A stretch of DNA of 64,000 nt from NCBI RefSeq assembly GCF_003730195.1, contig NZ_QWGG01000002.1, positions 372,001 through 436,000 of the forward strand. The letters are read 5' to 3'. Of this stretch, positions 19,826 to 22,123 are shown one piece after another. How positions within the stretch are numbered: the first letter of the stretch is position 1; every line of letters starts with the position of its first letter. Under the pieces are notes generated by a model. The model saw only the letters and a list, made by a program, of their open reading frames with translations. It was not told where the DNA came from and did no database searches. The stretch comes from Halosimplex salinum (GTDB taxonomy: Archaea; Halobacteriota; Halobacteria; Halobacteriales; Haloarculaceae). A program made the position numbers and the translations under genes.

Positions 19826-19969
19826 ACACGACTCATTTCCGGCCTCGCGGAAAACACTTTCCATTAAAACGTCTCTGCTGTTTTTGAAACGTCTACACGG
19901 CTCTCGGGCCTTTACGATAGTATCGAGAGTAGGTGGATTTTTGTAATCGGGCACGAAAGAGTCCGTGTG

Positions 19970-21307
19970 ATGCCCAGAGACCGCCCTGTCCTCCTCGCCG
20001 TCCTCGTGGCGGCCGTCGCCCTGGCCCCGGTGGTCGGCGCGGCCGCTGCCGCCCCGGCTGTCGGGGGCGCCGACGCGACCGATGTCCACTCGGACGCGGC
20101 GTCCCAGGCCCAGCCGGCCGGCGCCCAGTCAGTTTCGGGAACCGAGCAGACAGCCTTCTCCCTCACGCCGCGGTCCGCCGACGTGGCCCGAACGGTCGTC
20201 GTCTCCCAGCCGAACACGTCGAGCTATCTCGGGATCCGGGACGAAGCGGTCCAGCAGTCCGGCCAGGACAGCGTGTCACTGAACGTCGGCAGTGCGATTC
20301 AACAGGACGTTACCGAGCTCGAGAGCGAGTACACTTCGCTTACGTTCGAACAGCGCTACGAGAACACCACCGGTCGACAGGCCCGACTGGACGTGATCCG
20401 GAGCGAGGTCGATCGGCTGGAACGGCGCGTGCAGGAGCTCGAACTGCGCCGGAATCGCGTGATCAACAGCTACAACGACGGCGACTACGACACCGAAGCG
20501 TTCCTGCAGGAACTGGCGTCGCTCGACGTGGCCGCCCGCGGGATGGAGTCCGAGTTCGACCGGGTCCGGGGGGCGGCGGGTCTGGGACTTCCCTCGGACA
20601 TCGACACGAAACTCGACAACCTCGAGGGCGACCTGCTCACCCTCCACGGGCCGGTTCGCCAGCAGATCGGCGGCGCGATGTCCGGCGCTCGCGACCCGCT
20701 CTCGGTGTACACGGTCACGTCCCAGACCGGCGTCGTCCTCGCGGCCAAGGAAGGGTCGCTGTACTACCGCGAGGCCTACCTCGGGCAGAACCGCAACCAG
20801 GTCGGAACCAACGAGTTCGTCACCGAGGACGACCCCAGCGGGATCAGCAACGCGAACACCCGCGCGACGCAGCTCTACCCGTGGGTATACGACAACTACC
20901 GTTCGGGACCGAACGTCGAACCGATCGGCAACACGTCGATCTACTATGTCCAGCTGGGTCACCCGCACGGCTCGCTGGACACCTACCTCGACGGCCGCTC
21001 CGGGGACGCGTTCCGCGAGTACCAGACCAAACCCCTCGACGCGCTCCCGACCCGACAGACGACGAACGTGAGTTCCAACGTCCGCCTCACGATCAACCGC
21101 ACGCACGCTACCGGACCGATGGAGATCGTCGTCACCGACAACCTCACCGGCGAATCGCTGGACGCGACGGTGACGGTCAACGGCCACGACGTCGGTTCGA
21201 CCGGTGACGACGGCCGTCTCTGGACGCTCACCCCACAGCGCTCCGTCCGTATCACCGTCACGACGGAGAGCGGACGGACCGTCCACGAGCGGTTCTTCTC
21301 GCGCTGA
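19970..21307 (+). CDS. secreted haloarchaeal protein with coiled-coil region
   Basis: 445 residues. Sec-type signal peptide at 1-30 (VLLAVLVAAVALAPVVGAAAA), then a central coiled coil (RSEVDRLERRVQELELRRNRV), a middle domain with FVTEDDPSG, and a C-terminal Ig/carboxypeptidase-regulatory-like beta domain (TVTVNGHDVGSTGDDGRLW). No C-terminal anchor is seen. I recognise it as one of the large secreted proteins shared by haloarchaea, function unknown. It is divergent from the membrane winged-helix regulator with 144 bp between the starts. Confidence 0.75.
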   Translation: MPRDRPVLLAVLVAAVALAPVVGAAAAAPAVGGADATDVHSDAASQAQPAGAQSVSGTEQTAFSLTPRSADVARTVVVSQPNTSSYLGIRDEAVQQSGQDSVSLNVGSAIQQDVTELESEYTSLTFEQRYENTTGRQARLDVIRSEVDRLERRVQELELRRNRVINSYNDGDYDTEAFLQELASLDVAARGMESEFDRVRGAAGLGLPSDIDTKLDNLEGDLLTLHGPVRQQIGGAMSGARDPLSVYTVTSQTGVVLAAKEGSLYYREAYLGQNRNQVGTNEFVTEDDPSGISNANTRATQLYPWVYDNYRSGPNVEPIGNTSIYYVQLGHPHGSLDTYLDGRSGDAFREYQTKPLDALPTRQTTNVSSNVRLTINRTHATGPMEIVVTDNLTGESLDATVTVNGHDVGSTGDDGRLWTLTPQRSVRITVTTESGRTVHERFFSR

Positions 21308-21353
21308 GGGCGGCGAAAATCGGTTTTCTGCGTTCGATCGCGGCGAGCGCGGT

Positions 21354-21505
21354 CCTATTCGGGCACTTCGGCGACGGTCGTGATCGCGACTTCCGGGCTG
21401 TACGATGGCCCTGCATCCACCTTTTTCCGCTCGGGTCGCTGCGCGACCCACTCGCGCAAAAATCTGGACCAAAAACCCGCTCGCTCACTCCGTTCGCTCG
21501 CGGCC
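21354..21505. repeat. hairpin element plus duplicated methyltransferase 3' end
   Basis: 21354-21411 repeats 21505-21562 with one mismatch (21358); the copied segment is the last 18 codons and stop of the methyltransferase. Between the copies is CCACCTTTTTCCGCTCGGGT, its inverse arm, CGCAAAAATCTGGACCAAAA and a GAGCGAACGGAGTGAGCGAG-like palindrome. Confidence 0.8.
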
Positions 21506-22123
21506 CTACTCGGGCACTTCGGCGACGGTCGTGATCGCGACTTCCGGGCTGTACGATGGCCCCATCGTCACGTGGCGGAACTCCTCGAAGCCGGCTTCGG
21601 AGAACATGCGGTCTGCTTCCTCGGCGTCGTAGAACAGCATGAACGCGTCGGCGAGCTTCTGGAAGATGGCCCGCGAGGGGTAGTTCGGGCCGACGATGAG
21701 CACCTGACCGCCGGGCTCGGTGACGCGGCGACACTCGGCGAGCGCCTCGACCGGGTCGGGCCAGTACTCGATCGACCCGGAGGACCACACCACGTCGAAG
21801 GTGTCGTCCTTGAACGGGAGTCGCTGGGCGTCGCCGCGATAGAACCGCACGGGGTCGTGCTTGCCGAGCTTCGCCCACGCTTTCTCCATCTGGTGGACGC
21901 TCTGGTCGAGCCCGTGGACGTTCCCGGTGTGCTGGAGGATGCCCTCGGTGCCGAAGCCGGTCCCACAGCCGACGTCCAGCACTCGGTCCCCGTCTTCGAT
22001 GTCCAAGAGGCCCAGCGCCTGCGCGCGCATCTCCTCGGTCCAGATGAAGGGGTTGATCTGGTCGTACACCTTCGAGAGATACTTGTAGAACAGACGGGCC
22101 CGCGACTTGTCTTGGACGGCCAT
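21506..22123 (-). CDS. SAM-dependent methyltransferase, MPBQ/quinone type
   Basis: 205 residues. Class I methyltransferase with motif I VLDVGCGTG, an acidic loop DQSVHQMEKA, motif II-like FDVVWSSGSIEYWPDP and motif III PGGQVLIVGPNY. The SSGSIEYWPDP and FYDAEEADRMF segments resemble the archaeal group related to plant VTE3 (2-methyl-6-phytylbenzoquinol methyltransferase). In haloarchaea a role in menaquinone ring methylation is likely. Single gene; its 3' end is duplicated downstream around a hairpin repeat. Confidence 0.82.
   Translation of the reverse strand: MAVQDKSRARLFYKYLSKVYDQINPFIWTEEMRAQALGLLDIEDGDRVLDVGCGTGFGTEGILQHTGNVHGLDQSVHQMEKAWAKLGKHDPVRFYRGDAQRLPFKDDTFDVVWSSGSIEYWPDPVEALAECRRVTEPGGQVLIVGPNYPSRAIFQKLADAFMLFYDAEEADRMFSEAGFEEFRHVTMGPSYSPEVAITTVAEVPE

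Follow-up and report, generated by a model that had tools for sequence, protein, structure and literature searches.

The methyltransferase locus

The DNA analysed here, referred to as the window, is a stretch of 64,000 nucleotides from the haloarchaeon Halosimplex salinum (contig NZ_QWGG01000002.1, positions 372,001 to 436,000). It carries a methyltransferase gene whose 3′ end occurs twice, with a small hairpin element between the two copies and a convergent gene beyond them. The features, in window coordinates, are:

19967..21307, plus strand: convergent neighbour gene, DUF7096 / DUF7094 / archaeal Fn3-like (open reading frame and domain search)
21355..21411, minus strand: X′, second gene-end copy, 18 codons and TAG, running on into downstream DNA (repeat comparison)
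21412..21413, minus strand: Y = CA, two extra nucleotides separating NNN from X′ and belonging to the join signature (sequence)
21414..21416, minus strand: second NNN (ATG), immediately past GGTGG (sequence; pattern over 89 loci)
21417..21475, minus strand: core element of 59 bp (G000:C21:393417-393475), in gene sense TTTTT-GGTCCAGA-TTTTT-hairpin-AAAAA-GGTGG (pattern match)
21427..21457, minus strand: hp3 hairpin GCGCGAGTGGGTCGCGCAGCGACCCGAGCGG, between T5 and A5 (folding; arm covariation in 223 relatives)
21476..21505, minus strand: hp2 palindrome GGCCGCGAGCGAACGGAGTGAGCGAGCGGG, between the stop codon and T5 (sequence)
21506..21562, minus strand: X, the gene-end copy in use by the methyltransferase, 18 codons and TAG (repeat comparison)
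21563..21565, minus strand: NNN, the ATG codon before X in the methyltransferase gene (sequence)
21506..22123, minus strand: methyltransferase gene (Methyltransf_11 / UbiE-like), 205 aa, with the element directly past its stop codon (open reading frame; PF08241, E = 1.3e-26; PF01209, E = 2.5e-16)

The direct repeat (21348-21411 against 21499-21562) is identical at 62 of 64 positions with a start-to-start spacing of 151, and on the minus strand each copy comprises the last 18 codons and the TAG of the methyltransferase with one synonymous GAG/GAA difference. The original prediction, made from the window sequence alone, that this gene end occurs twice around a T5/A5 hairpin is therefore borne out. 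The repeat is far beyond chance: the two flanks of the element align with a score of 58, compared with 9 (median) and 13 (95% point) for the flanks of unrelated elements. In gene sense, the order past the stop codon is palindrome, TTTTT-GGTCCAGA-TTTTT, hairpin, AAAAA-GGTGG, ATG, CA and second gene end. The prediction had overlooked that the codon before the gene end is duplicated as well, as ATG at 21414-21416, and that an extra CA (21412-21413) comes after it, an arrangement that recurs throughout the family described below. The gene-sense strand of the hairpin folds far better than its shuffles (z = -3.28), whereas the opposite strand does not (z = -0.84). The end of X′ and the stop codon of the convergent gene are 47 nt apart, and no Rfam family matched the window at the gathering threshold.

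A repeat family of the haloarchaea

The pattern T5-N8-T5-hairpin-A5-RRTGG was found at 42 places in the H. salinum genome (reversed control pattern, 0), in 8/8 Halosimplex genomes and in 27 of the 59 genomes of a class-wide haloarchaeal sample; such searches detect exact matches only, so that older copies are missed, and the element counts are inflated by orthologous loci. At least 117 GTDB contig stretches carry the element, and among the matches listed all titles are haloarchaeal except Actinarchaeum, a deep-branching halophile. The element was detected in none of 101 genomes of a phylum sample outside the order. The GGTCCAGA form had no match in 2.9 million viral contigs, on which ground viral spread was rejected. 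A text search of open-licence papers, including a search by motif sequence, retrieved no description of the family. These elements thus apparently represent an undescribed repeat family that extends across the haloarchaea and numbers up to dozens of copies in a genome.

A few kinds of 8-mer occur between the T tracts (GGTCCAGA, CGCCCACG, GCCCCATC, CACCCACG and CACCCATG), and the CCA of the 8-mer forms base pairs with the TGG at the end of the element. In Actinarchaeum YIM 93972 and Halobacteriales archaeon YIM A00013, a variant of the form T6-CATCAAC-T6 ... A6-GGTTG occurs (loci L184, L200 and L235), in which CAAC/GTTG replaces CCA/TGG, a compensatory change at the foot of the element in a deep-branching lineage. 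The arms of hp3 covary: in 223 relatives, positions 2 to 4 form Watson-Crick pairs in 70-81% of cases, compared with 29-43% when partners are shuffled. Positions 5 and 6 mostly comprise a tandem G-A/A-G mismatch (CGAG/CGAG), a non-canonical pairing that is conserved amid freely varying stems. In 208 of 224 distinct cores, and in all 30 of the CACCCATG class, the strand that begins with T5-N8 is more stable than its complement. This implies that selection sees this strand in single-stranded form, as either RNA or DNA. Longer relatives additionally contain GCATHCG, another hairpin and a GGTTCACC box located 27-44 nt to the left of T5; the box is present in 1 of 222 control regions.

The element is dispersed, with a right end that is fixed (A5-RRTGG) and a left end that is variable. 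Identical or nearly identical cores are located at unlinked loci with different flanks (for example L058 and L063, 80/80), and two elements about 520 bp apart in one genome (G008:C1:1830932-1831000 and 1831455-1831523) share an identical hairpin but differ in their 8-mers (GGTCCAGC and CGCCCACG), as if the 8-mer were swappable as a module. These observations show that cores are copied and in part swapped. In 1.46 Mb of loci, no autonomous or cargo-bearing version was found, nor a long version with the same ends.

Several other repeats were noted at the loci inspected. On the 3′ side of the methyltransferase gene in one Halosimplex genome (L255, G002), and beyond X′ at L020, another hairpin motif, CTTTT(T)CSGCCACCGGGAGAGC...GCTCTCCCGAGCC, occupies the place where the element would be expected; it is possibly a second terminator-like repeat family of haloarchaea, free of gene-end duplication. 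At L021 (G000:C11:442801-445825), a stretch resembling a tRNA 3′ end, AAGTGCGACGGGCGAGATTTGAACT, occurs four times at a spacing of 141-296 bp and possibly represents stacked attachment sites. Runs of 17-20 C next to an element-like half at L011 (locus position ~1600-1665, G000:C21) may reflect an assembly problem.

Gene-end duplications and their history

The survey for further 3′-end repeats that the original prediction had proposed revealed the same repeats at other copies of the hairpin. Among 232 distinct elements, the left and right flanks align with each other, at a score threshold of 22, in 64/123 elements with GGTCCAGA, 15/25 with GCCCCATC, 14/33 with CGCCCACG and 4/5 with CACCCACG; the threshold lies above the 95% point (13) for flanks of unlike elements, and the tail of this null distribution is contributed by orthologues and members of arrays. 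A duplication is therefore present in about half of the GGTGG-ended elements, compared with only 1 of 32 in the CACCCATG...GATGG class, and only for this subfamily does it hold that hairpins show no tendency to duplication, one of the two observations named beforehand as refuting. The duplicated stretch varies from 28 to 191 nt and is nearly always the 3′ end of the upstream gene. In 80 of 91 duplications, the stop codon of a sense gene is found past the start of the duplication, typically by 30-60 nt, and ahead of T5; the left boundary of the element is often at or within this stop codon and otherwise further out.

The join on the right side has a constant form: GGTGG is followed by three nucleotides equal to those in the gene, then by one or two extra nucleotides (mostly C, T, CC, CT or CA), after which the gene resumes. 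This form fits 52 of 89 loci, which include orthologues and represent about 40 genes by reading, compared with approximately 5 expected when the upstream sequence is swapped. No microhomology between the element end and the target was observed past the three nucleotides. The duplication boundary coincides with a codon boundary at 38 of 56 sites; codon-phase targeting was nevertheless rejected, because base preferences matched for codon phase (G/A past the boundary, no G at N2) can account for the figure. A reading of the element as the scaffold and X′ as the guide of a guide RNA is disfavoured by the insertion of 1-2 nt at position 4 and by the varied NNN.

The original prediction had compared the insertion to that of integrases at tRNA 3′ ends. 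An element of the tyrosine integrase type, with an attachment site in a protein gene and the gene end restored from the element's own sequence, would leave the gene intact after insertion and its 3′ end duplicated, as is observed. Elements of the tRNA type carry along a fixed copy of their attachment site. Here, by contrast, dozens of different genes are each flanked by their own end, the repeat varies between 28 and 191 nt, and one or two extra nucleotides lie three bases from the element, a combination that points to a long target duplication rather than to restoration of an attachment site. In the 1.46 Mb of loci, neither a cargo gene nor an integrase gene accompanies the element, nor does a fixed attachment core, and the analogy was rejected as very improbable indeed.

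The direction of insertion can be read from the PheT gene. In a Halosimplex genome that lacks the element at this gene (G002), PheT ends in ALRND-TGA. In G004, the right copy ends in ALRND-TGA and continues into comparable downstream sequence, and the left copy ends in ALR-TAG, with the stop codon supplied by the left end of the element; G006 is similar. Since the right copy retains the ancestral C-terminus and stop codon, the element was inserted within the gene, and the new copy is that on its upstream side. By analogy with PheT, X is probably the new copy and X′ the ancestral one at the methyltransferase locus. There, the element and the join ATG-CA-GG are common to four Halosimplex species, three sister species sharing Y = CA. 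The methyltransferase gene of G022 and of some twenty other genera has a single end and no element. The empty-site comparison thus agrees with the prediction of a miniature element inserted at the end of a protein gene with the coding end kept, and no relative was seen with two copies but no hairpin, the other refuting observation. Independent insertions are located elsewhere in the methyltransferase gene in G052 and G042, and in G054, a sister species, this gene has an element but no duplication.

The last case is among those expected if old, fixed terminator hairpins had been duplicated in tandem together with the gene end by replication slippage, with later loss of the second hairpin and no transposition at all. 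Some loci are indeed arrays of n elements and n+1 gene ends (X-E-X-E-X at many loci), and L280 is a plain tandem duplication in which the second hairpin is different. However, most duplications have no second element after them, the two PheT copies in G004 and G006 end differently with the right one matching the element-free gene of G002, and nearly identical cores are found at unlinked loci. Slippage without transposition is therefore an unlikely, although not negligible, account of the family. What is observed is that the element inserts with a long and variable target duplication.

Within a genome, X and X′ are mostly ~90-100% identical, whereas X is mostly ~80-90% identical between species that have the join in common, which suggests that the insertion is old and that gene conversion has since acted between X and X′. 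From species to species X′ tracks X, with a conserved join; such tracking might also indicate that X′ itself is functional, for instance as a guide or decoy, and that selection maintains its identity with the gene. This seems improbable, because X′ is absent from about half of the GGTGG-ended and from nearly all GATGG elements and the tracking is explained by gene conversion between close direct repeats. Some insertions are either very old or at re-used sites, since insertion sites are common to different families, as in the EFETL gene of Halosimplex and Natrialbaceae. Some orthologous sites have differing 8-mers, which requires replacement or conversion of the element. No transposition event between strains was caught.

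The predominance of 3′ ends need not reflect targeting. The duplication comprises the first codons of a gene in three Haloferax species (an oxidoreductase-like gene) and at one Natronolimnohabitans locus (another gene), and the start of a purD-looking gene is duplicated at L144. These rare 5′-end cases are what random insertion with long duplications and subsequent selection predicts, and the bias appears to reflect selection of those survivors that carry a terminator: a T-tract hairpin would be harmless or useful at a 3′ end and harmful between a promoter and its gene. T stretches end transcription in Haloferax (PMC7237163), by analogy with which the T5 tracts are putative transcription terminators. 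The right end of elements without a duplication is often a few nucleotides from a convergent stop codon; such a stop codon lies within 60 nt in 36/91 GGTGG elements and 18/32 CACCCATG elements, compared with 3/97 of those with a duplication. These stop-adjacent copies are as would be expected of old copies that now act as shared terminators.

A model of movement and its relation to known elements

A search for reverse transcriptase (RVT_1) in 59 haloarchaeal genomes, element-rich ones among them, found none, whereas a control search was positive in 3 of 14 known genomes. A reverse-transcribed element, a diversity-generating retroelement (DGR) and a group II intron were rejected on this basis. 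The same result makes a related mechanism highly improbable, in which a structured sense-strand RNA is inserted into a nick by target-primed reverse transcription; this mechanism would fix the 3′ end, leave the 5′ end variable and produce long target duplications, in keeping with the strong sense-strand structure, the ends of the element and the extra nucleotides close to the 3′ junction. A hairpin structured on one strand is a feature shared with IS200/IS605, PATE and REP types. Dependence on their Y1 transposase (PF01797) was rejected, because this enzyme was not found in the element-rich genomes G098 (26 copies), G031 (13) and G045 (8) and because target duplications are present.

Overall, the family is best explained as non-autonomous mobile hairpins that generate long, variable target duplications by strand-switch copying, survive at gene 3′ ends and undergo conversion between X and X′; we regard this account as a whole as probable. 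Insertion would start from a nick or short staggered break within a coding sequence, from which displacement synthesis would re-copy the gene end. The copying strand would then switch to a hairpin element exposed in single-stranded form on its structured strand, and the GGTGG foot of the element would be joined to the displaced 5′ flap, giving the product gene-X-element-NNN-(1-2 nt)-X′-downstream. Such insertions would survive mainly at gene 3′ ends, the only place where the gene stays whole while the T5 tracts may serve as a terminator, and X and X′ would be homogenised afterwards by gene conversion. The strand-switch model covers the fixed right end, the long and variable duplication and the polarity, but leaves the signature of 3 nt plus 1-2 nt without an explanation. 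The constant join matches no insertion mechanism among those considered, and the one or two extra nucleotides three bases in are the strongest clue to the enzyme.

The family resembles several known systems in part. As with integrative elements at tRNA 3′ ends that use tyrosine integrases, a gene end is found on either side of the insertion, but here there is neither an integrase nor a fixed attachment site, and the gene differs from one insertion to the next. REP and BIME sequences with TnpA-REP (RAYT) are likewise dispersed intergenic palindromes with single-strand structure, conserved mismatches and tandem arrays; their Y1 transposase family is, however, missing from several element-rich genomes. 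REPs are not known to duplicate gene ends. Haloarchaeal MITEs have been described in Haloquadratum walsbyi (PMC3119063) and are similarly short, non-coding and multicopy, with inverted-repeat ends and no transposase of their own. By contrast, no parent transposon was found for the present element in the 1.46 Mb of loci, its duplications are not short and of fixed length, as those of MITEs derived from DDE transposons are, but variable (28-191 nt), and one or two extra nucleotides are present at the join. The PATEs and SMR elements of H. walsbyi (PMC3119063) are also hairpin-based, approximately 100 nt long and present in many copies, and the movement of SMR is partly enigmatic; however, they generate no target duplications and SMR-A targets other mobile elements, whereas the present family is characterised by its duplications and inserts at ordinary genes.

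It is tempting to speculate, and doubtful rather than probable, that these elements represent a new class of DNA mobility, in which single-stranded hairpins move via host replication or repair with no dedicated transposase and leave long duplications and a constant scar of 3 nt plus 1-2 nt. The insertions reshape gene ends, as in the two species in which PheT has become shorter by two C-terminal residues, and supply T-tract hairpins behind genes. The constant join constrains the mechanism as few repeats do. Given the absence of reverse transcriptase from the genomes sampled, and of Y1 transposase from several rich hosts, how the repeat moves becomes a direct question, and the presence of copies in Haloferax, a genetic model genus, makes it testable.
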